From Polyangium sp. 15x6 (GTDB lineage Bacteria; Myxococcota_A; Polyangia; Polyangiales; Polyangiaceae), in NCBI RefSeq assembly GCF_029960785.1, contig NZ_JASBQE010000078.1:1-56039 (forward strand): a DNA stretch of 56,039 nt. The letters run 5' to 3'. Of the stretch, positions 16,584 through 48,714 are shown one piece after another. A model generated the notes under the pieces. The model ran no database searches. It was given only the letters and a program-made list of their open reading frames with translations, and had not been told where the DNA came from. The first letter of the stretch is position 1. Each line of letters begins with the position of its first letter. The position numbers and the translations under genes are program-made.

Positions 16584-18179
16584 ATGTCGCGAAAGCCCGT
16601 GCTCATCCACGATGGCCTCGTTCGAGCGCCAAACCTCGCAGCGCTCGGGTGGCTCGCGCGCTTGCCCATCCTTCGTTCAGTCGCTGCATGGGTCGAGAGG
16701 CGTATCACACGCCGTCCTTCCGCTTCACAGCCCCGGAGCCGCGTCGTTCGATGGCTGTTTCTGCGCTCGCTCGGCGCGGTCCATTACCTCGCGTTCGCCT
16801 CGCTCGGTTCGCAGGTGCTCGGCCTTCATGGCCGCCGCGGCATCCTCCCCATTCGAGAGCGGCTCGAGCGTGCCCGGTACGTCTTCGGACCGAAGCGCTA
16901 CCAGGCCGTGCCGTCGATTTTCTGGGTGGATGCGTCCGATGCCACGCTCGTTCGCGCCTGCCGCGCAGGAAAGCTCCTCGCGGCGCTGCTCGTGCTCGGT
17001 GTCGCTCCTCGGCCCGTGCTTTTGCTGCTCTGGGCGCTCTACCTCTCGTTCGTCTCGGCCAGCGGCACGTTCCTGTCGTTTCAATGGGACGCGCTCCTCC
17101 TCGAGAGCAGCCTGCACGCGCTCCTGATCGCACCACGCGGCCTGCGTCCGGGCCTCGGCCGCGAGGACCCTCCGTGGCAAGCGGTGCTGCTCCTGCGATG
17201 GCACGTCTTCCGGCTCTACTATGAATCGGGCCTCGCGAAGCTCCAGTCCGGCGACGTCACGTGGAAGAACCGCACCGCGCTCGGCTACCATTACGAGACG
17301 CAGCCGCTCCCGACCCCGCTCGGGTGGTATGCGCATCAGCTCCCCCGCCCCGTCCAGCGGCTGTCGACCAGGCTCGCGCTTCTTTGCGAGTGTATCGTGC
17401 CGTTTCTCGTGTTCGCTCCCCGGCGCCTCCGGCGGTTTTCCTTCTGGCCCCTCGCCGGACTACAGGCGGGCATCGCCGCCACCGGCAATTATGGATTTTT
17501 CAATTTGCTCACGGTCGTACTCGGGTCATGGCTCCTGGACGACGAGCCGCTGCTCGGGAAAACCCTCTTTCGGGCCACGGGGCCCGCGCGGCCGATGCGG
17601 GGCGTCCGGCGCTTCGTGATCGGAGCGGCTGCGGGCCTTCTCTTCACGCTCACCCTCGGCGCACATCTCGAACGCTACGGCCCTCGCAGCCCGCCGGGCA
17701 TTCTCTCGCGCATGCTGAACGCGCTCGTGCCCATCCATTCGGTCAACACGTACGGGCTCTTCAGCGTCATGACGGTACGTCGACCCGAGATCGTGATCGA
17801 AGGCTCCGACGACGGAGACCGCTGGCTCGAGTACGAATTCCGGTACAAGCCCACCGATCCGCGCCGGCCCCCGCCCTGGGTCGCGCCGCATCAACCACGG
17901 CTCGACTGGCAGATGTGGTTTGCCGCGCTCGGGCCGCCGCCACGCTGGTTCGTCGCGTTCCTGGCACGTCTGCTGGAGGGATCGCCCGAGGTGCTCGCGT
18001 TGCTCCAGCGCTGTCCGTTTCCGGATCGGCCACCGCGTTACGTGCGCGCCGTTCTTTACGAGTACCGCATGACGGACATCGAGACGCGGCGCCGCACGGG
18101 CATGTGGTGGGAGCGGGAGCAGCTCGGGCTGTATTTCCCCGCGATTACGATCACGAAAACCGACTCCGCGCCGGTGTAG
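16584..18179 (+). CDS. Lipase maturation factor-like membrane protein (LMF1/LMF2 family)
   Basis: A 531-residue polytopic membrane protein. Family-typical segments are WLFLRSLGAVHYLAFASLGS (first span), PSIFWVDASDATL, FLSFQWDALLLESS, WHVFRLYYESGLAKLQSGD, TWKNRTALGYHYETQPLPTP, and the late soluble part with RWLEYEFRYKPTDPRRPPPW. In animals LMF1 helps fold lipases in the ER; bacterial homologues are common in myxobacteria but have no established role. About six to eight hydrophobic spans fall in residues 55-370, followed by a soluble C-terminal domain. It stands alone and converges with the next gene, 24 nt apart. Confidence 0.9.
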   Translation: MSRKPVLIHDGLVRAPNLAALGWLARLPILRSVAAWVERRITRRPSASQPRSRVVRWLFLRSLGAVHYLAFASLGSQVLGLHGRRGILPIRERLERARYVFGPKRYQAVPSIFWVDASDATLVRACRAGKLLAALLVLGVAPRPVLLLLWALYLSFVSASGTFLSFQWDALLLESSLHALLIAPRGLRPGLGREDPPWQAVLLLRWHVFRLYYESGLAKLQSGDVTWKNRTALGYHYETQPLPTPLGWYAHQLPRPVQRLSTRLALLCECIVPFLVFAPRRLRRFSFWPLAGLQAGIAATGNYGFFNLLTVVLGSWLLDDEPLLGKTLFRATGPARPMRGVRRFVIGAAAGLLFTLTLGAHLERYGPRSPPGILSRMLNALVPIHSVNTYGLFSVMTVRRPEIVIEGSDDGDRWLEYEFRYKPTDPRRPPPWVAPHQPRLDWQMWFAALGPPPRWFVAFLARLLEGSPEVLALLQRCPFPDRPPRYVRAVLYEYRMTDIETRRRTGMWWEREQLGLYFPAITITKTDSAPV

Positions 18180-23273: not shown

Positions 23274-24269
23274 TCACGCGGGTTCGGAGTCGAGCCCCCT
23301 GCACGCATCTGGACCATTCCGCAGCGCCATCCGCATGCCCACGCGATAGAGACGCTCTCGCAATGCGGCCGGCGCCAGCACCTCGACGCCGTCGCCCAGG
23401 CCCGTGAGCTGGTGCGTGGCCACGTCCTCGCTCTCCAGCAGGAGATCCACCGTCCGAAAGCCCTCCGCGTCCGGCGGCCCCGCGTCCTCCAGCATCCGGC
23501 GCACGGCGTCGTGCGGGACCACGTGCGGCAGGCCCTTCTGCGCGCCGGGCGACAGACGAACACGGCACGGGTAGGTCAAGAGCGATCGGTCGAACGCCGA
23601 CGACGATTCGGCCCACCACGCGGCAAGGTCGAAATCATCCGGCCGGACAAACGCATCCGCCCTCGCTTCGGCCTTGTGGATCCGGCTGATCCGGTAGGTC
23701 TTGATCGCCCGCCGATGCCGCGCGACCAGGTACCACGTGCCCGCCTTGAGGACGAGCCCGAGCGGGTCCACGCGACGACGGGCCGACCTCTCCCCGTGGC
23801 GCAGGTCGAGCCGACGACCTTCCCAGACGGCCTCGGCGACGGCTGGCAGCGCGTCGAGTTTTTCCCGGCGCGAAAACCACCCCGGCGCATCGAGCAGGAA
23901 TCGCTCCCGGATCCGGCCGGCACGGCCGCGCAGCTCCGCCGGCAGGGTCGCGTCGACCTTGGCCCGCGCCGTCGCGGCGACCGTGGCCAATCCGAGGTCG
24001 GCGACCGCCTGCGGCGCGCCGGACAAAAACAGAGCGCTCGCTTCCTCGGCGGTCAGGCCATCGAGGTGCGTACGCCAGCCCGGGGCCAGGCGAATCCCGC
24101 CGCCCGGGCCCGACTCGGTCCAGAGTGGAACCCCGGCCGCCAAAAGTGCCGTGATGTCCCGGTAGAGCGTGCGGACCGAGACCGAGAGCTCGTCCGCGAG
24201 CGCGGTCGCCGTGGCGTGCTTGCGTCGCTGGAGGATGAGGAGAAGCGCGAGAAGCCGGCTGGATCGCAC
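23274..24269 (-). CDS. HTH/WYL-domain transcriptional regulator, second copy
   Basis: A 331-residue regulator with an N-terminal winged helix (RLLALLLILQRRKHATATAL, then VSVRTLYRDITALLAAGVP), the GGGIRLAPGWRT wing segment and a WYL sensor domain (DPLGLVLKAGTWYLVARHR, YRISRIHKAEARADAF). The C-terminal extension carries the usual DLLLESEDVATHQLTGLGD region. It starts at GTG 24269; nearby ATGs are out of frame. The divergent DHFR-like gene begins 63 nt away with a perfect palindrome between them, so mutual control is likely. Confidence 0.93.
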   Translation of the reverse strand: MRSSRLLALLLILQRRKHATATALADELSVSVRTLYRDITALLAAGVPLWTESGPGGGIRLAPGWRTHLDGLTAEEASALFLSGAPQAVADLGLATVAATARAKVDATLPAELRGRAGRIRERFLLDAPGWFSRREKLDALPAVAEAVWEGRRLDLRHGERSARRRVDPLGLVLKAGTWYLVARHRRAIKTYRISRIHKAEARADAFVRPDDFDLAAWWAESSSAFDRSLLTYPCRVRLSPGAQKGLPHVVPHDAVRRMLEDAGPPDAEGFRTVDLLLESEDVATHQLTGLGDGVEVLAPAALRERLYRVGMRMALRNGPDACRGLDSEPA

Positions 24270-24875: not shown

Positions 24876-24968
24876 TGCAGGGGGCGCCCCTCGGGCGGGT
24901 GGTACGGCGCGTTCCCAGTTCCGCCGTCTGTTTGCCCCCTCCCCGGGCAGGACGGTAGGTTCTCGGCC

Positions 24969-25628
24969 GTGCTCGCCCCCGAGCTGACCATCGCGCTGGT
25001 AGCGAAAGCCCTCGTGGGGGAGCGGCAGGCCGTGCGCGCGCTCGTGGACAGGCTCACGCCCGTGGTCCAGATGCGCGTCGCCAGGGCGCTCCGGCGGCGC
25101 CGGGGGGCGGCGCTCGGGCGGGATGTCCGGCAGGAGGTCGAGGACCTCACGCAGTCGGTGTTCCTCGCCATCTTCGCGAACGGCGGGCAGGCCCTGCGCA
25201 AGTGGGACCCCGCCCGCGGCTCTTCGCTCGAAGGCTTCGTCGGGCTGCTCGCCGATCACGAGATCGCCGCCATCCTGCGCAGCCGGCGGCGCAGCCCCTG
25301 GACCGAGGATCCGACCGCGGATGAGGATCTCGCCGAAGACGCGCCCCCGGGCGACGTCGGGCCCGAGCTCGAGACGCTCACCCGCGAGGCCTTGCGGACG
25401 GTCGTCGACCGCCTGCGCGAGCGCCTGAGCGACCGAGGCCTCGAGCTCTTTTTCCTGCTCTTCGTCGAGGAGCGGTCGACCGAGGAGGTCTGCGCGGACA
25501 CCGGCCTCACACCGGACGCGGTCTACGCGTGGCGCAGCCGGATCGGGAAGCTCGTCCGGCAGATCGCCGCCGAGATCGTGTCAGAAAACGAGGATCCGGA
25601 TCGTAGATCTCTGCGGAGGCCCCCCTGA
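24969..25628 (+). CDS. RNA polymerase sigma factor (sigma-70, ECF-like)
   Basis: A 219-residue sigma factor. Region 2 is recognisable in DLTQSVFLAIFANGGQALRKWDPARGSSLEGFVGLLADHEI and the following Arg-rich RSRRRSPW; region 4 lies in LELFFLLFVEERSTEEVCADTGLTPDAVYAWRSRIGKLV, with a helix-turn-helix. The linker is acidic (DPTADEDLAEDAPPGD). It starts at GTG 24969. Its stop overlaps the ATG of the anti-sigma-like gene (TGATG at 25626-25630), so the two are translated together. It is the obvious candidate to read the two-block motif found before the three downstream lipoprotein genes. Confidence 0.9.
   Translation: MLAPELTIALVAKALVGERQAVRALVDRLTPVVQMRVARALRRRRGAALGRDVRQEVEDLTQSVFLAIFANGGQALRKWDPARGSSLEGFVGLLADHEIAAILRSRRRSPWTEDPTADEDLAEDAPPGDVGPELETLTREALRTVVDRLRERLSDRGLELFFLLFVEERSTEEVCADTGLTPDAVYAWRSRIGKLVRQIAAEIVSENEDPDRRSLRRPP
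25577..25606 (+). promoter_or_regulatory. Possible internal promoter before the anti-sigma-like gene
   Basis: CGTGTCAGA-N13-GATCGTAG inside the last codons of the sigma gene, 22 nt before the next ATG. It keeps the TGTCAGA block, the exact 13-nt spacing and the TCGTA core of the motif at 29264, 29756 and 30398, but only 5 of 8 bases of the second block. It could give feedback expression of the anti-sigma and CHAT genes; chance similarity cannot be excluded. Confidence 0.35.
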
Positions 25629-26449
25629 TGACCACGGATGAGCTGCTGAAAGCCGTGGCGCAGGCTGCGCGCGAGGACGAGATCGACGACGATCCGCGCT
25701 GGTCCGCCCTGGCCGAGGGGAGCCTGCCCGAGCAAGATCGCGCGGCGCTCGAAGAGATCGCGCGGAGGTCGCCGCGGCACGAGGAGGCCTGGCACATGCT
25801 CAGGCCGCTCGATGAGAAGGCGCGCGCGCGGTTCACGGACGGGATCCTCGCGCAGATGGCAAAGGAGAAGGCCGCCGCCGAGGAGAGCCCCGCCCCGGCT
25901 CCACCGCCCCGCGAAGGCGCCCAGGTGATCCCGCTCCCGAAGAAACGCACGTGGGTGCCCGCGGTCGCCGCGCTGGCCGCCGCCGCGGCCGTCGCATTGC
26001 TCGTCGGGCTGCCCGCTCGCGGGCCCTCGAACGGGGACCCGCTTCCCGCCTACGAGGTCAGCCTTCTCGGCGGTGAGCACAGCACCCGCGCGGAGCCCGC
26101 GCCGACCGATCCGCGCCCGCCGCTCCGCCTCGGCCCGGGTTCGTCCCTGGAGATCGTGCTCCGCCCGGCCACGCCGGACCGGAAGCCGATCGCCGCGGGC
26201 GGCTTCTTGATCCAGGATGGACGCGCGCGTGTGTGGCCGATCCAGCCTGAAATCTCGCCCGATGGAGCCATCCGCGTCGCAGGGGAGCGGGAAACTTTGT
26301 TCCCCAACCTTTCCGCGGGTTCGTACGAGATCGTGATCGCCGTCGGCCGCGTCGGAGCGCTGCCCGAGGCCGACGCAGTGGTCCGCGGCGCGGAGGCGGA
26401 CGCGCGCGTGCGGCTGTTTCGCCAGGCGATCGTGCTCGTGGATCCATGA
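25628..26449 (+). CDS. Membrane-anchored anti-sigma-like protein
   Basis: A 273-residue single-span protein. The cytoplasmic part (about residues 1-105) is charged and helical (DPRWSALAEGSLPEQDRAAL, HEEAWHMLRPLDEKARARF) and lacks a zinc-binding HxxxCxxC motif. A hydrophobic span follows at about residues 108-128, then a beta-rich periplasmic domain (SLEIVLRPATP, FLIQDGRARVWPIQPE, LSAGSYEIVIAVGR). Position directly after a sigma gene, coupled by overlap, with this topology, is the standard mark of an anti-sigma factor. Its own stop overlaps the CHAT gene start (ATGA). The inhibitory role is inferred, not visible from a known anti-sigma motif. Confidence 0.8.
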   Translation: MTTDELLKAVAQAAREDEIDDDPRWSALAEGSLPEQDRAALEEIARRSPRHEEAWHMLRPLDEKARARFTDGILAQMAKEKAAAEESPAPAPPPREGAQVIPLPKKRTWVPAVAALAAAAAVALLVGLPARGPSNGDPLPAYEVSLLGGEHSTRAEPAPTDPRPPLRLGPGSSLEIVLRPATPDRKPIAAGGFLIQDGRARVWPIQPEISPDGAIRVAGERETLFPNLSAGSYEIVIAVGRVGALPEADAVVRGAEADARVRLFRQAIVLVDP

Positions 26450-29235
26450 CGCCGGCGCCAGCGCGAGCGTCCTCGCTCGTTCCCGCCCTGCTCTTCGCGC
26501 TCGCGCTCGTCACGCGCGGCGATACGCGCCTCGAAGCAACCCCCTCCCCGCCCCCGCCGCCCCTGCCGCTCGAAGTCGAGGTCGCGGGCTGCGGCGCCGT
26601 GCTCGCCGAACCCGCCTGCGAGTTGCCCGAGGATCGAACCCTGCGCGTCTGGGTGAAGGCGCCGCCGGGAGCCCGGATCGAAGCGGCCCTCGACGCCCGC
26701 GCCGCCCCGCTCGAAGGCGCCGCGATCCAGGGCGGCACGCTCGGCCGGATCGAGGTCCCCGCCCCCACGCGCGAGCTCTCCGTCACGGCCACGCTCGGCG
26801 ATCGGCGCGCGGCCTTCCGGCTGCCGCTGCGCCCGCCGAGCCCCGATCCCGCCTTGAAGGAGGCCGAAACCCTGCGGCAAACGGGCAAACTCGACGAGGC
26901 CGCGAAGCAGCTCTCCGCGATGACCTCCGATCCCGATCCGGCGCGCCGGGCGCGGGCGCTCGGCAAGCTCGCCCGGATCGACAGGGCCCAGGGCCGGATC
27001 GAGGCGGCGATCGGGCGCTTCGAGGAGAGCATGCGGGCCCACCGCGCGCTCGGCCGGATCTCCGACGAGTTCCTCGATGGGTTCGCGCTCTATTACACGC
27101 TGACGTACCACGGGCGCAGGCTCGCGGAGGCGCGGCGCGTGCTCGAACGCCTCGAGCCGCTCGCGGATCGGCACCCGGAGGGGCGCGTGCTCCTGTCCTA
27201 TTACGCCGGGCTCCTCTCGTCGGAGACCGGCGATCTGCGCACCACGCTGCGGCTCCTCGGCGCCTCGGCCGAGGGCGCCGAGCGGCTCGGGCTCGCCCTG
27301 CACCGCCTCGACGTGCTGCAGCTCGAGGCCGACATGCTGCAGATCCTCGGGCGAGGCGCGGAGGGCGAAGCGCTGCTCGCCGAGGTGCGCGCGTCGTTCC
27401 CCGAAGACGCGAGCCCATGCCGAAAGGCCTCGATGCACACGAGCGTCGGCTGGTTCGCCTTGCAAGCCATCGCGCGGGGCGATCGATCGGAGCTCCGCAT
27501 CGAGGACGCGATCGCCGCCTTCTCGCGAGCGCTCTCCCTTCACCGGGGCGCGTGCCCGGACGGCGAAAAACTCGCCAATGCGCTCACGAACCTCGCGCTC
27601 GGCGAGCTGTTCGGCGGAGACGCCGCGCGGGCGGCGGAGTACCTCGCCCTCGCGCGCCGCGAGCGGCCCGATCCGGACGCGCGTCTCGCGGTGTGGCTGC
27701 TCGACATCGAAGGTCGCATCACCCTCGGGCGCGGCGCGCCGGCGCGCGCGCTGCGAATCTACGAACGAATGGCGGAGATCGCGGCCGCGGGCGTGCTGCC
27801 GGCGAGCCGGTTTCGCGCGGCGCTCGGGCGAGCGGAGGCGTTCGAGGCGCTCGGGCGCGTGGCGGCCGCGAAGGAAGCGTACGCCGAGGCGGAGGCGCTG
27901 CTCGACGACCACAGCTTGCTCGTCCCGCTCGGGCAGGGGCGCGAGACGTTCCTCGGTCGGTTCGACGAGGGCGCCCGCCGGCGGGTCGATTTCCTCCTGC
28001 GCCACGATCCGGCCGAGGCCGCCCGGGCCGCGCGTCGTTCGCGGGCGCGCTCGCTCGCGGCCCTGCGGTGGCAGGGCCGTATCGCGGCACTCGGCCCCGA
28101 GGAGCGGGCTCGCTGGGAGGGCGCCATTCTGGACTATCGACGCGAGCGGGATGCGCTCGATCACGAGGCCCGGGGCGACTGGAAGCTCGCGGCCGACGCG
28201 CTCGCGCGGGCCCGCGCGGCGAGGAGCGCGCGCGAGGCGAAGCTCGTGGCCGCGCTCGATCAAGCGCTCGCGGTGCTCGGGCGCGCCGAGGTCGACGGAG
28301 GCGCGGCGCTGCCCCCCGTGCAGCCGGGCGAGCTGCTCCTCGTGTACCACCCGATTCGCGCAGGCTGGGCGGGGTTTGCCCTCACCCGCGAGGGCGTCAC
28401 GGCGCGCAGGTTGCCCGCGCCGAGCGCGACGCCGACGCCGGAAGAGCTCTCGCGCGTGCTGCTCGAGCCTTTCGGGGACGTGATCACGGCGGCCCGGCGG
28501 ATCCGGCTCGCGCCTTATGGCGAGCTCGATCGGATCGATTTTCAGGCCCTGCCCTTTCGTGGCGCGCCGCTGCTCGCGCGGGCGCCGGTGGCCTACGCGG
28601 TGGACCTGCCCGGGCGCGGAGAGAGCGCCGAGGCGCCGGCCGCGGAGGGATCGGCGTGGGCCGTGGTGGTGGCCGATCCACGTCGCGACTTGCCGGCGGC
28701 GCGGCGCGAGGCCGAGATCGTCGCCGGGGCGCTCGAAGAACGGGGGGGCTTTCGGGTGCGGCGGCTCTGGACCCGGGAGGCCACGCTGGGCGCGGTGCGC
28801 GAGGGGCTCGAAACGCCCGGGGCCATGCTCTTCCATTATGCGGGGCATGGCTTTTTCGGCGGGCGCGATGGCTGGGAGAGCGGCTTGCCGCTCGCGGAGG
28901 GCGGCTTCCTGAGCGTGCGGGACGTCCTTTCCTTGCCGCGGGTGCCGGCGCACGTCGTCTTGTCCGGGTGCGACACGGCACGGACGGCGACCGAGGCGCG
29001 GGCCGAGGGGCTCGGGCTCGCCCAGGCGTTCGTCGTGGCCGGCGCTCGGTCGGTGATCGCGGCGACGCGTCCGATCGACGATCGCATGGCCCAGCGCATG
29101 ATGGCGGCGCTCTATGGATCGCCGTCCGCGCGTGGCCCGATCGACGCGGCCGCCGCCCTGCGCGACGCGGCGCTCGCGGTCCGGGGCGAGGATGCCGCGT
29201 CCGACTGGGCGAGCCTGCGCGTGCTCGTGCCCTGA
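26446..29235 (+). CDS. TPR-CHAT protease-like protein with N-terminal signal segment
   Basis: A 929-residue protein. It begins with a hydrophobic segment (SLVPALLFALALVTRG) that looks like a signal peptide or anchor, then a beta-rich domain to about residue 125, then many helical TPR-like repeats (about 140-530). The C terminus is a CHAT domain, a caspase-like fold: catalytic His801 in HYAGHG and Cys842 in LSGCDTA, followed by LGLAQAFVVAGARSVIAATRPIDD. Both catalytic residues are intact, so it is probably an active cysteine protease. TPR-CHAT proteins cleave partner proteins on activation. Coupling to the anti-sigma-like gene by an ATGA overlap suggests that this protein is its substrate, perhaps on the periplasmic side; that is inference. 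Confidence 0.93.
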   Translation: MTPAPARASSLVPALLFALALVTRGDTRLEATPSPPPPPLPLEVEVAGCGAVLAEPACELPEDRTLRVWVKAPPGARIEAALDARAAPLEGAAIQGGTLGRIEVPAPTRELSVTATLGDRRAAFRLPLRPPSPDPALKEAETLRQTGKLDEAAKQLSAMTSDPDPARRARALGKLARIDRAQGRIEAAIGRFEESMRAHRALGRISDEFLDGFALYYTLTYHGRRLAEARRVLERLEPLADRHPEGRVLLSYYAGLLSSETGDLRTTLRLLGASAEGAERLGLALHRLDVLQLEADMLQILGRGAEGEALLAEVRASFPEDASPCRKASMHTSVGWFALQAIARGDRSELRIEDAIAAFSRALSLHRGACPDGEKLANALTNLALGELFGGDAARAAEYLALARRERPDPDARLAVWLLDIEGRITLGRGAPARALRIYERMAEIAAAGVLPASRFRAALGRAEAFEALGRVAAAKEAYAEAEALLDDHSLLVPLGQGRETFLGRFDEGARRRVDFLLRHDPAEAARAARRSRARSLAALRWQGRIAALGPEERARWEGAILDYRRERDALDHEARGDWKLAADALARARAARSAREAKLVAALDQALAVLGRAEVDGGAALPPVQPGELLLVYHPIRAGWAGFALTREGVTARRLPAPSATPTPEELSRVLLEPFGDVITAARRIRLAPYGELDRIDFQALPFRGAPLLARAPVAYAVDLPGRGESAEAPAAEGSAWAVVVADPRRDLPAARREAEIVAGALEERGGFRVRRLWTREATLGAVREGLETPGAMLFHYAGHGFFGGRDGWESGLPLAEGGFLSVRDVLSLPRVPAHVVLSGCDTARTATEARAEGLGLAQAFVVAGARSVIAATRPIDDRMAQRMMAALYGSPSARGPIDAAAALRDAALAVRGEDAASDWASLRVLVP

Positions 29236-29263
29236 TCGCGCGCTGTCAGAAAAATGTGGTGGG

Positions 29264-29293
29264 GTTGTCAGACTCCGAAACGCGGCGTCGTAA
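29264..29293 (+). promoter_or_regulatory. Shared two-block promoter, copy 1
   Basis: GTTGTCAGA (29264-29272), 13 nt, then CGTCGTAA (29286-29293), ending 21 nt before the lipoprotein ATG at 29315. The blocks and spacing recur exactly before the next two lipoprotein genes, so they probably form the -35 and -10 elements for an ECF-type sigma factor. Confidence 0.75.
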
Positions 29294-29314
29294 AGGACAG
29301 GCGTGGAGGACGTC

Positions 29315-29731
29315 ATGCATTATCGAATCGCGCTTGGTTTGTGCCTTTTGGTCATGGGTTGTGCCTCGGGCAGCGCGCCCGACACCAAGGAGAGCGTGCC
29401 GGTCGTCATGGCCCGCACGTGGCCGGATCCTACCGATCCGCAATGCGGCGCGTGTTCGTATGTGCTGGCGGAGCGTACCGTGTACGCTTCGCTGGACAGC
29501 ATGGACGAGATGCCTCCGATGGATCTCGTCCTTTACTCGCCGTCCAAGCAGGTCCTCCAGAGACACTTCGGCCTCGCGCCCCGAACGTACGCACCGGGCA
29601 AGGCAACGTATCCGGTCCCGGACGGCGCGACGCAGGACGTCGGTTATGGCGTGCTCGGTTGGCAGGGCCGTTCGGGTTACCAAACCAAAACGATCCCGGT
29701 CGCGTACAGGTCCGGATTCCTCACGGAATGA
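29315..29731 (+). CDS. Small lipoprotein, tandem paralogue 1
   Basis: A 138-residue secreted lipoprotein. A short signal (YRIALGLCLLVMGC) ends in a lipobox at VMGC. The mature part has DPTDPQCGACSYV with a Cys-x2-Cys pair, YASLDSMDEMPPMDLVLYSP, GLAPRTYAPGKATY and VGYGVLGWQGRSGY. The ATG at 29315 is preferred over GTG 29303 because GTGGAGG lies just upstream. The next gene is a close paralogue with the same upstream region, so the pair arose by tandem duplication. No known family is recognised; a surface beta-fold is likely from the alternating pattern. Confidence 0.87.
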   Translation: MHYRIALGLCLLVMGCASGSAPDTKESVPVVMARTWPDPTDPQCGACSYVLAERTVYASLDSMDEMPPMDLVLYSPSKQVLQRHFGLAPRTYAPGKATYPVPDGATQDVGYGVLGWQGRSGYQTKTIPVAYRSGFLTE

Positions 29732-29755
29732 CCAGCGCGCTCTGCCTGCGGTGGG

Positions 29756-29785
29756 GTTGTCAGACCGGGCGGGGCGTCGTCGTAA
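29756..29785 (+). promoter_or_regulatory. Shared two-block promoter, copy 2
   Basis: GTTGTCAGA (29756-29764), 13 nt, then CGTCGTAA (29778-29785), ending 22 nt before the ATG at 29808. The flanks (TGGGG before, GGGACAGGCG after) are also similar to copy 1, in keeping with gene duplication including the promoter. Confidence 0.75.
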
Positions 29786-29807
29786 GGGACAGGCGCGGAG
29801 GGATACG

Positions 29808-30233
29808 ATGCGAAATCAAATTGTGTTCGGATTGTGCATTCTGGTCATGGGCTGCGCCTCGAGCAGCGCGCCCGAGGCGGTGGAGAGCAAAGCGGCCGTC
29901 ATGGCGCTTCGAGCTCCGCTGCCGCGACCGACCGATCCGCAGTGTGGCGCGTGCAGGTACGTGATCAACGAAACGCTGGTGTATGCGTCGCTGGACGGCG
30001 TGGACCAGATGCCCCCGATGGATCTCGTCCTCTACTCGTCCACGGGGCAGGTCCTCGGCAAATATTATGGGCTCGCGCCCCGGACGTACGAGCCGGGCAA
30101 GGCGACGTACTGGGTCTCGGAGGGCGCGCAGAGGAACGTCGGTTATGGTCTGCTCGGTTGGCAGGGGAGGACGGGCTACCACACGGAAAAGATTCCGGTG
30201 AACGACTCGGAAATCCTCCTCCCCGTGGAATGA
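29808..30233 (+). CDS. Small lipoprotein, tandem paralogue 2
   Basis: A 141-residue lipoprotein paralogous to the previous gene. The signal segment IVFGLCILVMGC ends in the same lipobox; the mature part keeps DPQCGACRYV, YASLDGVDQMPPMDLVLYSS, GLAPRTYEPGKATY and VGYGLLGWQGRTGYHT. Only the linker after the lipobox and the last ten residues differ much. The ATG at 29808 is preceded by GGAGGG. It carries its own copy of the shared promoter, so expression does not rely on read-through from copy 1. Confidence 0.88.
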   Translation: MRNQIVFGLCILVMGCASSSAPEAVESKAAVMALRAPLPRPTDPQCGACRYVINETLVYASLDGVDQMPPMDLVLYSSTGQVLGKYYGLAPRTYEPGKATYWVSEGAQRNVGYGLLGWQGRTGYHTEKIPVNDSEILLPVE

Positions 30234-30316
30234 CCCGCGCGCTGCCCCTGCGCGCCTCCCCTCCTGCCGCCCACCCGGCCCCCTGCTCCCCCGTATCACC
30301 TCTGCCGCCGCGCCAC

Positions 30317-30335: not shown

Positions 30336-30397
30336 ACCCATGCGTCCGCAGTGAGGATCCGGTGACGTAGCCGGCGCGAAAAAAAAAAACGGCGAGG

Positions 30398-39960: not shown

Positions 39961-42900
39961 TTACCCCTCGCCTCGCCCGGTGGCGACGGGGGGCCCGGCA
40001 ACAGGTAACTCGACGATGAACGTCGCGCCGGCGGAAGGCGCGCTCTGGACACGGATCGAACCGCCGTGCGCCTCGGCGAGCTTGCGGCTGAGGTAAAGAC
40101 CAAGCCCGAGCCCGCCGTAATACTTGCTGGGCACGGCGCGCACGAAGCGCTCGAAGATGCGGCCCTGCTGCTCCGGTGCGATGCCGATTCCGTGATCTTT
40201 GATCGCGAGGTGCGCGATCCCGTCCTCCTGGTCGATGAAGATCTCGATGGGTTTGCCGGCTCCGAATTTGGCGGCGTTCGAGAGCAGATTGACGACGATC
40301 TGCTCGATCCGGGCGGGATCCCAGTTTCCCACGACCGGGACGTGGTCCCGGATCGAGGTCGAGCACCGGGCCTGCGAGAGCTGCAGTTTGAATTGCTCGA
40401 CCACGTCCCGGACGAGGGCCCTGAGGTCGACGGCGGCGAGCTCGAGCGGGAGCTGACCCGTGTGGACCCGCGCGACGCTCAAGAGATCATCATTGAGCCG
40501 GCGCAGGCGCGCGCCTTGCCGCAAGGCACGCTCGGCCAGCTTGGTCATGCTCTGCGGGTCGCTGGAGGAGCCCGACAGACTGGCTCGGCCCATCGATTGC
40601 AGCGAGAGCATCAGCGACGTGAGCGGCGTGTTGAGCTCGTGCGACGCCATGGACAGGAACTCGTCGCGCGCGTGAATGGCCTCCTGGGTCGCCCGATAGA
40701 GCCGCGCATTGTCGATCGAGGTCGCGGCCCGGCGCGCCACTTCTTTCGCCAGCTCGAGGTCGGCGCCCCCATAGGTGCGTCCCGACGCACCCGAGACGAG
40801 GGAGAGCACGCCCAGCGTTTGTCCGCGCGAAAGGAGAGGCACGGCGAGCATCGATCGGGCCCCGAGGGCGCGGATGATCCTCGCGTGCCCTTCGTCCTCG
40901 GTGCTGCTCTGGAGGCGAGCATCCGAGAGCTCGGGGATCAGGACCGGCTCCCCCGTGGCGAGGGCCCTGGCGGCCGGATGGGCCGACCCCTCGTGGGGCG
41001 GATATCGCCGCCGGAGCTCCTCGAGCAGCGGCGCATTCGCGGGGTCCTTGTGAACCCCCGCGATGCGCCGGATCTCCTGCCCCTCCACGGTATCGATCAC
41101 GCACCAGTCGGCCATGGATCGCACGCACAGCTCCCCGAGGCGCGCGAGTGTGTCCTCGTAATCGAGCGACCCCGAGAGCAGCTCCCCGGCCTCGGCCAGG
41201 AGCGCCGAGCGCCGCTCCGCCTCCTCGGCCGCGCCCCGCGCCGCCTGCGCGTCGGACAAGAGCCGCGCATTTTGCAGGGAAATGGCCGCCTGGACCGCGA
41301 GGAGCGAGAGCGCGACGAGCCGATCGGGCGTGAACGCGCCGATGAGCAGGTTGTTCTCGAGATAGAGCAGCCCGACCACGTTGGCCTGCCGCAAAATGGG
41401 CATGCACAGGACCGACTTGGGCCGCTCGCGGGTGACGTACGGGTCCGAGGCGAACTTGCTCGCCGTCGCGTCGTCGAGGAGCACCCGCTCGTTCGTCCGC
41501 TGAGCATATCTCACGATCATGGCCGGCACGAGGGAGGACGACGAGACCGGCAGGGATGGGAGCAGGCGCGTCACCGCCCCTTTCTCTTCGAGGCGTGCTT
41601 CGGCCTCGATCGAGAGGTCGCCATTTCGCAAGAGGAGCAGGTAGCTCTTCTGGGCGCCGCCCTCTTCGAGGACGACCCGGAGGAGGGTGCGGACCAGCTC
41701 GTCGAGGAGGATCTCGCTCGAAATGGTCTGGGAGGCCTTGACGACGGAGAGCAGATCGAGCTGCTCGGTGCGCAGCGCGAAGGTGGCGGTCGGCGTGAGC
41801 GGCCTGTGCTCCGGGAGGCGTGGATTCTGCTCGTCGATCTGCCTCACCTTGCCATCGGCGCCCCAGCGCGCATAACAGGCGCGGGCGTCGCGGAGGTAGG
41901 TCTCGGCAACCTGCTCGAAGCCCCGCGCCCGGTAAAACCTCGACGAGAGCTCGTACGCGAGCCCTTCGTTGTGGACGAAGCCATTTTCACGCGCGGACCG
42001 GATGGCCTGCTCGTAGAGGCGCATGGCGTCGAGGTCGCGCCCCTCGACGCGAGCGATCTCGGCCGAGACCAGAGCGTATCGATTGAAATAATTCTCGGGG
42101 CAGTTCTCCGCCCAGAGCGCGAGCTTCTGCTGCACGTCACCGATGCGCCGAGCGAACTCGCCCCGCTCGCCGGCGGGAGCATCCGGGAGGAGCTGCACCA
42201 TCGTGAGCGCGTGGAAGAAATGGTGGGTGGCTTCGATCGGCATGGCCATCGCGGCGCCGAGGTTCGTCGCCGCGCGTGCTGCGAACGAGAGTGACTCGGC
42301 GTGACGCCCGTAAAGGAACGCCGTGATCTGCTTCATGATGTCGTGGAAGACGATGCCGCAGCCGAACGTCGCCCGGGAGATCGCCGCGAGGCACGCGGCC
42401 TCGTGGAACGCAGCATCGTCGAAGCTCGACGGTCCCTGCGTCGCGCCCTTCAGGCAAGCCACGAACTGCCGCTCGAGCCGGATGGTTTCGTAGACCGGAA
42501 CGTTATGGCTCTGCCTGGCGAACGCGGCATATTTCTTCGATACCTGGAGCACCTCGTCGAGCGGATCGCCCTTCTCCACGACCTGCCACACGGTCTCGAA
42601 GGCGAGGAAGCCGGCATAAACGAGATCGCCCACCTCCAGGCACGCCTGAAAGGCCTGCTCGAGGATGGGGATACCGGTGGCGAAGGGCCTCCGCCAGAAA
42701 TTGATGTGGTCGCCGTGGAGGTGAAGGAGCGTCCCCTTCAATCGAGGGTCGTGAAACTTCTCGTTCAGCCGCAGCGACATCTCGGAGAATGCGGAGCCAA
42801 GAGGGATATCGCCGAAGGTCGACACCAGCATCATGCCATAGATGCTGTACGCGAAGCAGGACGGCTGGGTGTTGCCGTACTGCAAAGACAAACTCACCGC

Positions 42901-45648
42901 CTTGAGGGCGAGCAGGGGAAAGAGCTTCGGCCGCGCGATGTACGCGCAGGGCGCCGCCTCGACGAGCAGGCCGATGGTCGTCCGCGCGTCGGGATCGGTG
43001 GCCACGGGCGCGTCGAGGATGTCGGCGACGCGACGACCACGCAGGTGCGTCCGGATCACCTCGACCTCGGCCTCCGTCGCGGCTTTCAGCGACTCGTCCG
43101 AATCAGGGAGCGTCACCTCGAAGAGGCGCAGCGCTTCGAGCGCGACGGTCAACCCATCGTGGTATCTCCCGGAAACCTGGTACAGCCGCATCCGCAAGCC
43201 ATAGACCGCGGCGCGATCGAGGTTGGAGCGGGCATGCGCGAGGATCAGGTTGAACAGCTCGTCCGCCGATTCGAAGTTGCCGACGAGGTACTCGCATTCG
43301 GACCGCTCCAGATAGAGCGCGAGCGCCTCGTCGTAGAGCGCGCTCCAGGCGTCCCTGGGCAGGAGCGCCGTCGCGTGGGCCAGGTAGTTGCGCGCCGACG
43401 CATGGGCGACCGTGGCCTTCGCCTTCGTTCCCGCCAGGAAATTGAGCCGCCGGAGCGATTCCTTCTCGCGCGCGTCGGTGATGAGCTCCGCCCCGCGGTT
43501 CAGCTGGCTCACGACATCGAAGATATGCTCCTCGATGGCCTCTTCGGGCATGTTGGCCAGAAAGAGCCGGCCGATCCGCAGATGCATCTCCGCGCGGAGT
43601 TCCGCCGAGACGAGCGAATAGGCCGCCTCCTGGATGCGATCGTGGACGAAACGGTAGGAATCGCCCAGGCGGAGGATGAGCCCTACGCGGACGGCCTCCC
43701 AGAGCGCCGCGTGCACCTCGTCCTCGGAATCGCCCCGAATCATCGCGAGCGTGGCGGCGTCCGCGCGGTTGCCGAGGCACGAGACGTGGGTCAGCACGTC
43801 CTGGGTCTCGGCAGGGAGCCGCTTCAGCTTGTCGACCATCAGGTCGATCACGTTGTCGGTGAAGGTCTTCTCGCGGATCCTGGCGACGTCCCACCGAAAG
43901 GCCACCGCGTCCTCGTCGAATTCGATGAGGCGCTCCTCGTACAGCGCGGTGAGGAACTGGATGACGAAGAATGGATTGCCGGCCGTCTTCTCGTGCACGA
44001 GCTCCGACAGCGGCTCGGCTTCCTCCACGGAGCAGCGGAGGGTGTCGCTGAGGAACGCCGCGAGCTGACCTTTTTGAAGCGGGCCGAGCACGATGTCGGA
44101 GACACGCACGGCCGACTTCCGCACCTCGTTCATCGCCAGCATCATCGGATGGGTGAGAGGCACCTCGCTATTGCGGTATGAGCCGACGACGAGGAGGCTG
44201 TGCACCTCGGGATCGGTCAGGAGGTCCTGGAGGAGCGCGAGGCTGGCCGAATCGGCCCATTGCATGTCGTCGACGAAGAGCACGAGTGGGTGCTCTCTCT
44301 GCGCGAAGACCCCGATGAATTGCCGGAACACGATGTGGAATCGATTCCGCGCCTCGCCCGGCGGCAGCGCAGGGACCGAGGGTTGCCCGCCGAGGACGTG
44401 CTCGATCGGCGGGATCACGTCGACGATGAGCTTCCCATTGACCCCGAGGGCCGCCGCGAGCCGATGCTTCCATGCCGCGATCCGCTCCTCGCTCTCGGCC
44501 AGGATCTCGAGCACGAGCTCCTGGAAGGCCTGGACGATCGTCGAATAGGGGATGTCGCTCTTGATCAGATCGAACTTGCCCGAAACGAAGAACGCCCGCT
44601 CCCGGACGACGGGCTCGTGGAGCTTGTGGACGAGCGCGGATTTCCCGACCCCCGGCTCGCCGGCGACGAGCACGAGCTCCGGCATCCCCGTGGTCACCAC
44701 GCGCTCGAAGGCATCGCAGAGGAGGGCGATCTCCGCCTCCCTCCCGTGAAGCTTCTGCGATATCTGGAGGCGGTCCGGCACGTCCAGCGCTCCCGGGGGG
44801 AACGGCTCGATGCGACCGCTCTCGATCCATTGCGCGAGGCACTTTTCCAGGTCGCGGAGCACGCCTCGAGCGCTCTGGTACCGGTCGCAGGCCATCTTGG
44901 CCAGAAGATGCATCACGATGCGCGCAATGGCTTCGGGCACCTCGGGGACGATCTCCGAGGGGGACGGCGCGACACGCGCCAGGTGAAAATGAATCCATTC
45001 GAGCGGATCTCGCGCCTCGAACGGGACCCTACCGGTGAGCATTTCGTAGAACGTGACGCCGAGCGAGTAGAGGTCGGTGCGGGAATCGACCGCCCGGTTC
45101 ATTCGCCCCGTCTGCTCCGGCGACATGTACGGCAGTGAGCCCTCGATTTGCTCCGGGTTCTGCGGCGACATGTGCTCGCGGGGAAGTCGGGACGCGATCC
45201 CGAAATCCGTGAGCTTCGCCTCGCTCGTCGCAGGCTGGACGATGATGTTCTGGGGCTTGATGTCCTTGTGGACGACGCCGTGCCGATGAATGTCCGCGAC
45301 CGCGGTCGTGATGCGAATCGCGAGTCGCAGAAAGCACTCCGTCTCCATCGGCGCCCCGAGCAGGCGGTCGAGCGGCGTGCCCGCCGTGTCCTCGAGAACG
45401 AGCGCCGGCTGCCCGTGATACGTGTCGAGGGCGAGCGGCCTGATGACGGTCGGGAGGTCCAGCGCCTCGCCGAGCGCTTGCTCGTGTTTCAATCGTTCGA
45501 TGTCCTGCGGGCGGCTGCGCTTCGGATCGAGCGCCTTGAGGATCACCCGGCGCCCATCACTTTCTCGGATGGCACGGAGCACGAGGGTCCCCCGACCCTC
45601 GAAAAGGGTCTCGGTGATCGTGTACGGGGACGGACTCTGCATGTCCAT
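39961..45648 (-). CDS. Ser/Thr kinase-AAA ATPase-GAF-histidine kinase fusion protein
   Basis: A 1,895-residue multidomain signalling protein. Residues 1-270 form a Ser/Thr kinase (VILKALD lysine, HKDIKPQN catalytic loop, LTDFGIASRL, YMSPEQTGRMN). Next comes an AAA/NACHT-like ATPase with Walker A GEPGVGKSA (about 331) and LVLFVDDMQWAD, a long helical TPR-like region to about 1280, two GAF domains (about 1310-1450 with SVLCMPIL and GLLYLENN; about 1470-1630 with MLAVPLLSRGQTLGVLSL), then a histidine kinase with His near 1666 in ASHELNTPL and ATP-binding motifs NLLSNAAKF, DHGIGI and GLGLGLYLS. This is the known trifunctional kinase family common in myxobacteria and cyanobacteria. ATG 45648 is chosen because kinase homology starts there; upstream in-frame sequence is noise. 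Confidence 0.94.
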   Translation of the reverse strand: MDMQSPSPYTITETLFEGRGTLVLRAIRESDGRRVILKALDPKRSRPQDIERLKHEQALGEALDLPTVIRPLALDTYHGQPALVLEDTAGTPLDRLLGAPMETECFLRLAIRITTAVADIHRHGVVHKDIKPQNIIVQPATSEAKLTDFGIASRLPREHMSPQNPEQIEGSLPYMSPEQTGRMNRAVDSRTDLYSLGVTFYEMLTGRVPFEARDPLEWIHFHLARVAPSPSEIVPEVPEAIARIVMHLLAKMACDRYQSARGVLRDLEKCLAQWIESGRIEPFPPGALDVPDRLQISQKLHGREAEIALLCDAFERVVTTGMPELVLVAGEPGVGKSALVHKLHEPVVRERAFFVSGKFDLIKSDIPYSTIVQAFQELVLEILAESEERIAAWKHRLAAALGVNGKLIVDVIPPIEHVLGGQPSVPALPPGEARNRFHIVFRQFIGVFAQREHPLVLFVDDMQWADSASLALLQDLLTDPEVHSLLVVGSYRNSEVPLTHPMMLAMNEVRKSAVRVSDIVLGPLQKGQLAAFLSDTLRCSVEEAEPLSELVHEKTAGNPFFVIQFLTALYEERLIEFDEDAVAFRWDVARIREKTFTDNVIDLMVDKLKRLPAETQDVLTHVSCLGNRADAATLAMIRGDSEDEVHAALWEAVRVGLILRLGDSYRFVHDRIQEAAYSLVSAELRAEMHLRIGRLFLANMPEEAIEEHIFDVVSQLNRGAELITDAREKESLRRLNFLAGTKAKATVAHASARNYLAHATALLPRDAWSALYDEALALYLERSECEYLVGNFESADELFNLILAHARSNLDRAAVYGLRMRLYQVSGRYHDGLTVALEALRLFEVTLPDSDESLKAATEAEVEVIRTHLRGRRVADILDAPVATDPDARTTIGLLVEAAPCAYIARPKLFPLLALKAVSLSLQYGNTQPSCFAYSIYGMMLVSTFGDIPLGSAFSEMSLRLNEKFHDPRLKGTLLHLHGDHINFWRRPFATGIPILEQAFQACLEVGDLVYAGFLAFETVWQVVEKGDPLDEVLQVSKKYAAFARQSHNVPVYETIRLERQFVACLKGATQGPSSFDDAAFHEAACLAAISRATFGCGIVFHDIMKQITAFLYGRHAESLSFAARAATNLGAAMAMPIEATHHFFHALTMVQLLPDAPAGERGEFARRIGDVQQKLALWAENCPENYFNRYALVSAEIARVEGRDLDAMRLYEQAIRSARENGFVHNEGLAYELSSRFYRARGFEQVAETYLRDARACYARWGADGKVRQIDEQNPRLPEHRPLTPTATFALRTEQLDLLSVVKASQTISSEILLDELVRTLLRVVLEEGGAQKSYLLLLRNGDLSIEAEARLEEKGAVTRLLPSLPVSSSSLVPAMIVRYAQRTNERVLLDDATASKFASDPYVTRERPKSVLCMPILRQANVVGLLYLENNLLIGAFTPDRLVALSLLAVQAAISLQNARLLSDAQAARGAAEEAERRSALLAEAGELLSGSLDYEDTLARLGELCVRSMADWCVIDTVEGQEIRRIAGVHKDPANAPLLEELRRRYPPHEGSAHPAARALATGEPVLIPELSDARLQSSTEDEGHARIIRALGARSMLAVPLLSRGQTLGVLSLVSGASGRTYGGADLELAKEVARRAATSIDNARLYRATQEAIHARDEFLSMASHELNTPLTSLMLSLQSMGRASLSGSSSDPQSMTKLAERALRQGARLRRLNDDLLSVARVHTGQLPLELAAVDLRALVRDVVEQFKLQLSQARCSTSIRDHVPVVGNWDPARIEQIVVNLLSNAAKFGAGKPIEIFIDQEDGIAHLAIKDHGIGIAPEQQGRIFERFVRAVPSKYYGGLGLGLYLSRKLAEAHGGSIRVQSAPSAGATFIVELPVAGPPVATGRGEG

Positions 45649-45794
45649 GAAATGTGCTGCGACGAGCGGGCGGTCGGCGGCGGCGTTGGGTGCGGCTGAG
45701 GGCTGCACTTGTTTGTAAGCACAAGTCGCACCACGCCATCCGGAGACGTCTTGCAGCGCTGCGGCGGCGACGCGCCGCCCGGGCAGCCACGACC

Positions 45795-46496
45795 TCAGGA
45801 GGGAATGACCTTTTGGAGGGAGCGACGGGTGAAACGCCAGAAGAGGACGAGGACGGTGATCGATACGGCGCCCAGGCCGATCCACACCCAGGGCGGCGCG
45901 TCGCGCATCGCGTCGAAGACCTTCTCGCCGAAATAGGCGGTCAAAAGGAGGGGCAGGAAGTACCCGGCCAGCGAGCCCCAGAAATGCGTCTGGAAGCGCA
46001 CCCGGGAGATGCCGAAGAACACGTGGAGCATGGGCGGCATCCAGAAGATGAAGCGGAGCATGAACACGGTGAAGAACGCCCGCTTCTCGAGGGCCTCTTC
46101 GTAGGCGCGAAAGCGCGCGGGTACGAGCTTCGAGACCCAATCGCGCGCGACGAAGCGCGCGAACGAAAAGCCCACCACGCTCGCCGCCATGGTGCCGGCC
46201 ATGGAGAGCGCGAATGCCACCGGCCACGGCCAGATGAGCGGCGCCGCGAGGATGAAGATCGTGCCCGGCACGCCGAACGGCTGGAGCGCGGCGTACGCCG
46301 CCACGAACGCGACATACCCTCCCGGCCCGAGCTCCACGAGCGCCTGCTTGATGCGCGCAGGCTCGCTGAAGACCTCGAACAGGCCCAGGCGCTGCGCCAC
46401 GACCAGCCCGACGGCCACCGCGGCCACGGCGGCGATCCTCATGTTGCGGAGCGAGCGGCTCGCCGCGGGGTCCGGCGGGGGATCGGACGATCGCAC
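45795..46496 (-). CDS. TVP38/TMEM64 (VTT/DedA-like) membrane protein
   Basis: A 233-residue integral membrane protein of the VTT family. Family marks are LVELGPGGYVAFVAAYAALQPFGVP, FALSMAGTMAASVVGFSFARFVARD, FFTVFMLRFIFWMPPMLHVFFG and a final span VWIGLGAVSITVLVLFW. These proteins are thought to act as lipid scramblases or membrane-maintenance factors. It starts at GTG 46496 and is divergent from the TetR regulator. The intervening palindromes could control both. Confidence 0.9.
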   Translation of the reverse strand: MRSSDPPPDPAASRSLRNMRIAAVAAVAVGLVVAQRLGLFEVFSEPARIKQALVELGPGGYVAFVAAYAALQPFGVPGTIFILAAPLIWPWPVAFALSMAGTMAASVVGFSFARFVARDWVSKLVPARFRAYEEALEKRAFFTVFMLRFIFWMPPMLHVFFGISRVRFQTHFWGSLAGYFLPLLLTAYFGEKVFDAMRDAPPWVWIGLGAVSITVLVLFWRFTRRSLQKVIPS

Positions 46497-47949: not shown

Positions 47950-48714
47950 CTACTCCCGTTTCCGAGGCGGATACCGGATGATCACCACGTGCATGTGGGC
48001 ATCCTCTTCCAGCCTGGAGGTCTGGATCGAGATGGCGCCGTCCTTTTTCAGCTTTTGAAAATCCGCCGCGGTCAGGGTCAATTTGTGCGCGTGCCCGGCG
48101 AGACCTTGAACATCGTAGGTCCTATCCGTACCCGCGGCCATGTCGGCGGCGGTGATCACGACCTCGTGCTCGTCTTTCCCGCTGAACTCGGCCGAGCAGG
48201 CGGTCACCCATTCCGGCGGATCCTCCGCGGGCGCGCACCGCACGTGCACGCGGTGCGTATGCGTGAGGCCCTGGGTGCTCTTGGCGCGCAGAAGCTCCCC
48301 ACGCAAAAGGGTCTTCATATCCTCCGCGGTGAGCGTCACCTCGTGCGGATGCTTCGCCGTCCCCGCGATTTGATAGGTCTTTTCCGCGCCGGCAAGGACG
48401 TCGGCCAGCGTCACCACGAAGACGTGACCATGATTCTTCCCCACCCTGCAGATCACCCTCGCAAACGATGGCTCGGGCGGCTTCGCCGCGGGCTCCGGGG
48501 GCGTATTCGTGGCGGGCTCCGGGGGCGCTTCGATGGACGCCGCGGTCGCGCTCGGCTGCGCGGTCGGCTCGGGGGTAGGCGCGGCACTCGTACCGGGGGC
48601 CGCTGCCGGGGAGCTCGTTTGCCCCGTCCCGGGGTTCGGAGAACTGCCACCACACCCCGTCCACGGGAACGACGCTGCGGCTGCTGCGATCTGGAGAGCT
48701 TGTCGCCTGCGCAT
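47950..48714 (-). CDS. Exported protein with duplicated His-rich domain
   Basis: A 254-residue protein. The N terminus RRRQALQIAAAAASFPWTGC has a twin-Arg start and a Cys that could be a lipobox, so export is likely. A Pro/Ala/Thr-rich linker (residues 24-82) precedes two copies of a domain. Copy one: HGHVFVVTLADVLAGAEKTY, KHPHEVTLTAEDMKTLLRGE, THTHRVHVRC. Copy two: DEHEVVITAADMAAGTDRTY, GHAHKLTLTAADFQKLKKDG, DAHMHVVIIRY. The H-x-H pairs at matching places suggest metal binding. Whether the Tat-like start is used is uncertain. Confidence 0.87.
   Translation of the reverse strand: MRRRQALQIAAAAASFPWTGCGGSSPNPGTGQTSSPAAAPGTSAAPTPEPTAQPSATAASIEAPPEPATNTPPEPAAKPPEPSFARVICRVGKNHGHVFVVTLADVLAGAEKTYQIAGTAKHPHEVTLTAEDMKTLLRGELLRAKSTQGLTHTHRVHVRCAPAEDPPEWVTACSAEFSGKDEHEVVITAADMAAGTDRTYDVQGLAGHAHKLTLTAADFQKLKKDGAISIQTSRLEEDAHMHVVIIRYPPRKRE

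Follow-up and report, generated by a model that had tools for sequence, protein, structure and literature searches.

A gene for an extracytoplasmic function (ECF) sigma factor, a gene for a single-span membrane protein (hereafter the middle protein) and a gene for a TPR-CHAT protein follow one another in the window, that is, in the whole stretch of 56,039 nucleotides of the soil myxobacterium Polyangium sp. 15x6 (contig NZ_JASBQE010000078.1) that was analysed, and judged by their linkage and joint variation across genomes the three are one conserved, inherited unit. We consider, with a confidence that falls slightly short of even, that this operon may be an extracytoplasmic signalling unit in which an exported CHAT protease would cut a membrane anti-sigma factor, thereby freeing the sigma factor. 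A protease-triggered sigma circuit had been proposed in an earlier note made from the letters of this stretch, and the gene structure described there is exact in its open reading frame (ORF) ends and junction letters: the sigma and middle genes are coupled by a TGATG overlap (...ccTGATGacc, with TGA at 25626-25628 and ATG at 25628-25630), and the middle and CHAT genes by an ATGA overlap (...ccATGAcg, with ATG at 26446-26448 and TGA at 26447-26449). The coordinates of these and of other features are collected in Table 1.

The search covered 59 relatives and was widened to 289 genomes of the class and to 377 genomes of the phylum, and the loci were fetched and scanned with profiles in six frames. 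Partners were taken as linked when found within 7 kb of the CHAT gene, and a locus was called full-flank when each side extended for more than 4 kb. The search gave 93 CHAT places at E<=1e-50, from which we fetched 78; these CHAT loci (E<1e-50) hold a sigma gene in 62 cases, a middle gene in 62 and both in 60. At 8 of the 15 remaining places the same contig carries a match to the middle protein no more than 3 kb away. Within the full-flank loci the fraction with both partners rises to 46/50, and it is 34/38 when the 12 loci that had built the profiles are set aside, the four loci that miss both genes nearby being L103, L128, L140 and L152. Considering that the Polyangium genome has at least 82 matches to sigma-70 region 2 in 13.38 Mb, the chance of any sigma gene lying within 7 kb of a 3-kb gene is about 10%, and the observed 46 of 50 rules out chance linkage. 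At the level of genomes, where the class searches scored 9 candidates per genome for the middle protein and 3 for CHAT and the counts are thus lower bounds, 55 of the 57 genomes with a CHAT match (E<=1e-50) also hold the middle protein (E<=1e-10), 7 have the middle protein only and 225 of 289 have neither; in the two CHAT-only genomes (G056, G108) the CHAT match is close to a contig end. Co-occurrence of the three genes, named in the earlier note as a check on its proposal, is thus found among the loci, and that of CHAT and the middle protein among the genomes.

The linkage also extends to other classes of the phylum, where the middle protein was used to choose 14 loci. All three genes, with CHAT at E<1e-50, are present in 10 of them (L165, L168, L169, L171-L175, L177, L178); L176 gives weak sigma and weak CHAT matches, and no CHAT match was found in L166, L167 and L170, of which L167 and L170 are short contigs and L166 is not. 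Among close relatives, a pattern scan of genome contigs returned one locus, L098 of Polyangium sp. y55x31. The window genome itself has 12 CHAT matches, and of the 11 others two (C144, C228) have a sigma gene within 4 kb, about 0.6 being expected from the density of sigma genes; the called genes around these two show no such sigma/middle/CHAT operon. In three related genomes of one genus (G017, G182, G276) the sigma and middle genes (L086, L157, L158) are on a contig other than that of the CHAT match, and in these the unit seems to be split.

The arrangement of the genes is variable, with the sigma gene upstream in the same direction in 42 of the 60 linked loci, divergent in 10, downstream in 6 and convergent in 2, which corresponds to at least nine changes on the CHAT tree. 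The pairwise distances of the three proteins co-vary (0.80 for CHAT and sigma, 0.84 for CHAT and middle, 0.70 for sigma and middle; n=60), a correlation matched in none of 1000 permutations and to which species descent adds.

The sigma protein has regions 2 and 4 only, an architecture that corresponds to that of ECF sigma factors. As a single sequence it scores weakly, with Sigma70_r2 and r4_2 each under the Pfam cut-off and a TIGR02937 score of 38.9 against a cut-off of 42.9; the profile of its relatives matches 9isn_F, a solved structure of an ECF sigma factor (E 1.8e-12), and 15 of 22 family members match the Pfam model of region 2 and 9 of 22 that of region 4 (E<=0.01), so that the ECF-like identity assigned in the earlier note is well founded. 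This family profile was scored on 150 of 302 first-look candidates in the 13.4-Mb genome and has one match at E<=1e-5. We noted, 5' of the sigma gene, a tentative promoter-like element of the TTGC-N15-19-GG[TC]A type, a pattern present in 8 of 68 sigma upstream regions (background mean 0.9, highest of 200 draws 5). All eight carriers belong to the window's own genus, and neither k-mer enrichment nor this pattern gave a promoter shared beyond the genus in the sigma upstream regions; a sigma-70 consensus site was not found in the promoter scan.

The middle protein has a 19-residue hydrophobic segment starting at residue 110, compatible with a membrane helix at about residues 108-128, and a membrane-like segment is found in 68 of its 71 homologues, a set which counts one region twice (L084 is L153). 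Because lysine and arginine are in excess on the N-terminal side of the segment in 67 of these 68 proteins, the N-terminus should lie in the cytosol and the outer domain beyond the inner membrane. Indeed, a single-span protein with its N-terminus inside, encoded by a gene coupled to that of the sigma factor, is built like a membrane anti-sigma factor, which is what the protein is suggested to be; the placing of a single-span protein in the anti-sigma position, made from the window alone, is reinforced by the homologues. We have also compared homologues with a sigma gene within 4 kb with those without (L084 being dropped as the same region as L153, and L162 and L176 being scored as sigma-less despite a weak sigma match nearby, E 2e-4): the conserved N-terminal part was matched in 74 of 79 sigma-linked homologues versus 3 of 12 sigma-less ones (Fisher 4.7e-7), and some of the latter start almost at the membrane segment by gene call (L159, L164). 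Three of the 12 sigma-less homologues (L114, L133, L162) are near contig ends. Loss of the N-terminal part where no sigma gene is present is the pattern expected if this part binds the sigma factor.

The middle protein matches no family above cut-off, and a match to EncB (24.5 bits against a cut-off of 210) was set aside as compositional. Its profile returned from the PDB, up to E 1, only designed 'Cake' proteins (E 0.0016-0.38). Four loci (L159, L161, L164, L085) encode relatives of the outer domain in which the matched cytosolic part is short or missing and which have no sigma gene close by; judged by these matches, the relatives are an unnamed family of membrane-anchored domains.

The TPR-CHAT protein comprises an N-terminal hydrophobic stretch, a small domain with a pair of cysteines, a TPR array and a C-terminal CHAT domain, the latter matching Pfam PF12770 at E 6e-35 (121.5 bits against a cut-off of 24). 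The intact catalytic pair that had been pointed out in the window's protein, His801 in FHYAGHGFF and Cys842 in VVLSGCDTA, is conserved in every one of the 77 aligned rows that extend over the site, the other 5 of the 82 falling short of it, and in relatives down to 27% identity, and protease activity has probably been kept. The hydrophobic stretch is at residues 4-22 in the window's protein, and under crude rules it is present in 67 of 79 CHAT ORFs and a lipobox pattern in 38 of 79, the 79 ORFs including fragments and five fused proteins; lipoprotein-like signals are for example LLLAAC in L072, FVLAAC in L076 and LAPGC in L062. In the small N-terminal domain, C49 is found in 69 and C58 in 65 of the 82 aligned rows (7 and 8 rows, respectively, have no residue in these columns), and the pair would fit a disulphide. 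One further locus, L081, has next to its sigma, middle and CxxC genes a frame at 2451-3134 for a lipoprotein-like protein of 227 aa, which matches the N-terminal portion of the CHAT profile.

A distinct arrangement is seen in five loci of the genus (L067-L071), in which the middle protein and the TPR-CHAT protein are a single ORF whose called start overlaps the sigma gene by four bases. The fusion has a single origin on the CHAT tree, with a support of 100, and four of the five fused proteins have lost the small Cys-pair domain. Because the middle-protein part spans the membrane with its N-terminus inside, the CHAT part has to be outside the inner membrane in this clade; together with the signals described above, this indicates that the CHAT protein is probably exported. 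The earlier note had suggested cleavage on the periplasmic side, and the placement of CHAT outside is supported both by the export signals and by the fusion; that the anti-sigma protein is cut there is what we infer. At the same five loci a long protein is encoded 3' of the fused gene. It has 956 aa in L067 and 980 aa in L068, and its terminal hydrophobic stretch and arginine run resemble a MYXO-CTERM sorting tail; the protein of L067 has no Pfam match at 0.01.

An exported component that the earlier note had overlooked is, judged by gene content, also part of the unit. A small lipoprotein-like gene with a CxxC segment (DPQCGAC) occurs twice in the window, downstream of the CHAT gene, the ORF of copy 1 itself opening at GTG 29303. 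The two copies arise from a tandem duplication of gene and upstream region (29255-30252) whose blocks are 492-502 bp apart and 76-80% alike, one block having a partial third copy near 30396. Relatives are found 3' of the CHAT gene in L060, L061 and L062, and a similar pair in L099. At other loci a subtilase (Pfam S8) is present near CHAT, namely in 29 of 50 full-flank loci within 7 kb (L107 being a weak match); none is present at the window's own locus, and there and at others small lipoprotein-like proteins with a similar CxxC segment are encoded. The subtilases start like lipoproteins, and in 41 aligned rows the catalytic residues are invariant wherever covered (Asp 38/38, His 38/38, Ser 37/37), as is a C-terminal CxxC (36/36). 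Because at least 12 gains or losses are needed on the CHAT tree, the subtilase is, by its distribution, an optional part of the unit; 5 of 60 linked loci have neither subtilase nor CxxC protein (L105, L106, L117, L132, L136).

An exported CxxC protein is found within 2 kb in 45 of 60 linked loci, a count that takes in unrelated CxxCH-type proteins, and with the subtilases excluded such proteins show a modest excess near the genes (30/142 near versus 9/96 far). When the profile of the CxxC lipoproteins, whose rows had been picked by the CxxC motif, is compared with that of the subtilase C-terminus, the match of 95.1% falls to 25.6% once the motif is masked, and common descent of the two can be proposed only tentatively because of this fall.

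The linkage, the charge-based topology, the export signals, the catalytic residues, the single origin of the fusion and the additional exported component are read directly from the sequences, and a scheme can be outlined in which sigma binding, cleavage, the order of the steps and the nature of the signal are conjectural. The cytosolic N-terminus of the middle protein would hold the sigma factor at the inner membrane, and the TPR-CHAT protein, exported and among homologues often as a lipoprotein, would work beside the outer domain of the middle protein. A signal from outside, read either by the TPR array as a ligand or by the CxxC/subtilase lipoprotein, would license the CHAT protease, which would then cut the middle protein in its outer part; proteolysis of the ordinary kind, within the membrane and in the cytosol, would subsequently free the sigma factor.

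A number of observations weigh against this scheme. In respect to the anti-sigma role, no anti-sigma family is found in the Pfam matches of 23 members of the middle-protein family, the HxxxCxxC zinc motif occurs in 1 of 71 homologues, and three loci (L153, L160, L163) keep the N-terminal part with no sigma gene nearby. Many anti-sigma domains are without zinc, and the missing zinc and anti-sigma domains lower, but do not abolish, the likelihood that the pair is an ECF sigma factor with a membrane anti-sigma factor. Two AlphaFold models, built from alignments of two rows each (the window and L098), are too poor for use (pLDDT, the predicted local distance difference test, of 47.9 and 43.1), and the helical N-terminus and beta-rich outer part of the middle protein are low-confidence predictions. 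In respect to the protease, the window's own CHAT protein has no lipobox, and the fused clade ties the protease to its supposed substrate, which would require cleavage in cis or some other regulation. As for linkage, in L128 and L140 a subtilase gene accompanies CHAT but neither a sigma nor a middle gene lies in the vicinity, in L103 and L152 CHAT stands alone, sigma and middle genes occur with no CHAT nearby in L086, L155, L157 and L166, and sigma and CHAT share the same nearest neighbour in only 28 of 60 loci, though this is far above chance.

The chief rival, doubtful in our view and yet the one to be taken most seriously, makes the proteases an output rather than an input: the middle protein would itself be the sensor, and CHAT together with the CxxC/subtilase component would be effectors turned on by the sigma factor. 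The pairs of CHAT and subtilase at L128 and L140 would be natural for such effectors, the subtilase is likewise exported with its triad intact where covered, and in 18 of the 60 linked loci the CHAT gene is not placed codirectionally behind the sigma gene (10 are divergent, 2 convergent, and in 6 the sigma gene comes after CHAT), so that CHAT is often likely to be on its own transcript. However, if CHAT were no more than a target gene, its fusion with the middle protein would be difficult to account for, and the promoter analysis found no common element outside the window's genus. A further reading is a self-contained relay in the periplasm, in which an exported CHAT lipoprotein and an exported subtilase/CxxC lipoprotein would make up a cascade of two proteases that cuts the membrane anti-sigma protein and so switches on the sigma factor, the fused clade having joined protease and anti-sigma protein in one transmembrane chain that frees the sigma factor by self-cutting; we regard this as unlikely. 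The fusion can also be read as a sensor and an anti-sigma factor brought into one chain, and 4 of the 5 fused proteins are without the small Cys-pair domain, as if this were a mere docking part. Both points suit a mode of action by binding and not by cutting, with the TPR-CHAT protein as an outer ligand sensor or co-inhibitor that by contact retains the anti-sigma protein or lets it go and directs its protease at another substrate, for example the CxxC lipoprotein or the subtilase. Such a mode is, we think, distinctly improbable: His and Cys are kept in all 77 covering rows, down to 27% identity, and because of this retention catalysis is under selection, the anti-sigma protein not necessarily being the substrate.

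The remaining rivals derive from published systems, and the comparisons made here hold for the excerpts of the cited papers. According to a review (PMC8999054), the conserved context of ECF54 sigma factors, whose model protein comes from Geodermatophilus, contains a carboxypeptidase, a subtilase and a CHAT protein, and proteolytic control in which no anti-sigma factor takes part has been proposed for them. The present unit is alike in having an ECF sigma factor with CHAT and subtilase neighbours, and a subtilase is indeed found in the 29 full-flank CHAT loci given above; by analogy, the proteases could cut the sigma factor itself, the middle protein being no anti-sigma factor. We consider this very improbable, as there is a dedicated protein in the membrane whose cytosolic part goes with the sigma gene, and the CHAT proteins, mostly with export-like N-termini, and the lipoprotein-like subtilases would be across the membrane from the sigma factor. 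The Polyangium unit is set apart from ECF54, as described, by its sigma-coupled membrane protein (in the anti-sigma position, in a putative role, in 46 of 50 loci), by proteases that look exported and by the host phylum.

In type III-E CRISPR (clustered regularly interspaced short palindromic repeats) systems, the protease Csx29 is switched on by target RNA bound to the RNA-guided complex Cas7-11 and cleaves Csx30, which binds and blocks CASP-sigma (PMC10028731). The three roles are the same, a TPR-CHAT protease, a partner and an ECF sigma factor, and there too cleavage of the partner is held to relieve sigma inhibition; the unit could then be a relic or relative of that system in phage defence, and 9 of 21 CHAT members do match the PADLOC model BovA (best 6.3e-08). 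Among ten neighbouring ORFs, one alone matches CRISPR-associated PADLOC models, that of a WYL-type regulator lying 0.7 kb upstream, which also gives a weak Cas3c match (E 1.7e-4). WYL regulators are a broad class, common outside CRISPR, and of 29 loci with clustered neighbours a relative of this one adjoins the unit in L060 only. The three proteins and 21 CHAT relatives gave no Cas or Csx match, and no Cas effector match above chance was found among these and the ten neighbours, Cas7-11 being unsearched in the remaining genome; the window has no CRISPR-like array, its sole close-spaced direct repeat of at least 23 nt being one pair at 48475-48522. Unlike in type III-E, the Polyangium CHAT protein has an export signal and would be beyond a membrane-spanning partner, and neither sigma nor CHAT had a match among 72,556 plasmids. 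We thus give this origin hardly any weight: kinship, implied when the operon was called a CRISPR-free version of type III-E, is unsupported, and the likeness is one of logic and of one domain.

Cleavage of a membrane anti-sigma factor is exemplified by RseA, which is cut by DegS and then by RseP and ClpXP (PMC10028731). That system shares with the scheme preferred here, in which exported CHAT cuts the anti-sigma protein, an ECF sigma factor, an inner-membrane anti-sigma protein and a protease sensing the cell envelope, and differs in that the first protease would here be a caspase-like CHAT cysteine protease, encoded in the same operon and fused in one clade. Caspase-like protease genes also adjoin an ECF sigma gene in EACC2-caspase systems, which include a DUF1822 protein and for which a role in sensing and transcription has been proposed (PMC8195603); in contrast to the Polyangium unit, the excerpts describe no membrane anti-sigma factor or lipoprotein protease, and the three Polyangium proteins match neither EACC2 nor DUF1822 in Pfam. 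In open-licence full texts we came upon no paper in which an exported CHAT protease goes with an anti-sigma protein of the membrane. Judged by gene content, the unit would therefore be protease-controlled ECF signalling, of a known kind, and its putative variant of exported CHAT and membrane anti-sigma factor is new. If the scheme is correct, a caspase-like CHAT protease would, from outside the inner membrane, where serine proteases such as DegS act, trigger gene expression, which would explain the presence of the unit in several classes of the phylum. Nature would then offer a protease/anti-sigma sensor in a single chain for study, and the sigma switch of type III-E CRISPR would take its place within a broader group of sigma factors under CHAT control. 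With the fusion clade and the homologues that have no sigma gene nearby, the proposal can be put to clear and cheap tests.

Table 1. Positions in the window of the three-gene unit and of features next to it.
Feature	Position	Strand	Remarks
ECF-type sigma gene	24969-25628	+	GTG start, 219 aa, regions 2 and 4
Middle gene, in the anti-sigma position	25628-26449	+	ATG start, 273 aa
TPR-CHAT gene	26446-29235	+	ATG start, 929 aa
Promoter-like element TTGC-N18-GGTA (tentative)	24932-24957	+	5' of the sigma gene; pattern enrichment
Small lipoprotein-like gene, DPQCGAC (CxxC) segment, copy 1	29315-29731	+	ATG 29315 by alignment with copy 2
Small lipoprotein-like gene, DPQCGAC segment, copy 2	29808-30233	+	Tandem duplication
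WYL-type regulator	23274-24269		Upstream of the unit; PADLOC CRISPR-associated models, E 2.4e-46

Elsewhere in the window, the left end (18-5783) encodes a protein of the non-ribosomal peptide synthetase type with two condensation, two AMP-binding and two carrier domains, and a gene similar to lipase maturation factor (LMF1) is found at 16584-18179. Two adjacent long ORFs at 40066-42294 and 42301-44181 (742 and 626 aa) have no Pfam match at 1e-5 and face, on the other strand, a 2088-aa open frame at 39961-46227.

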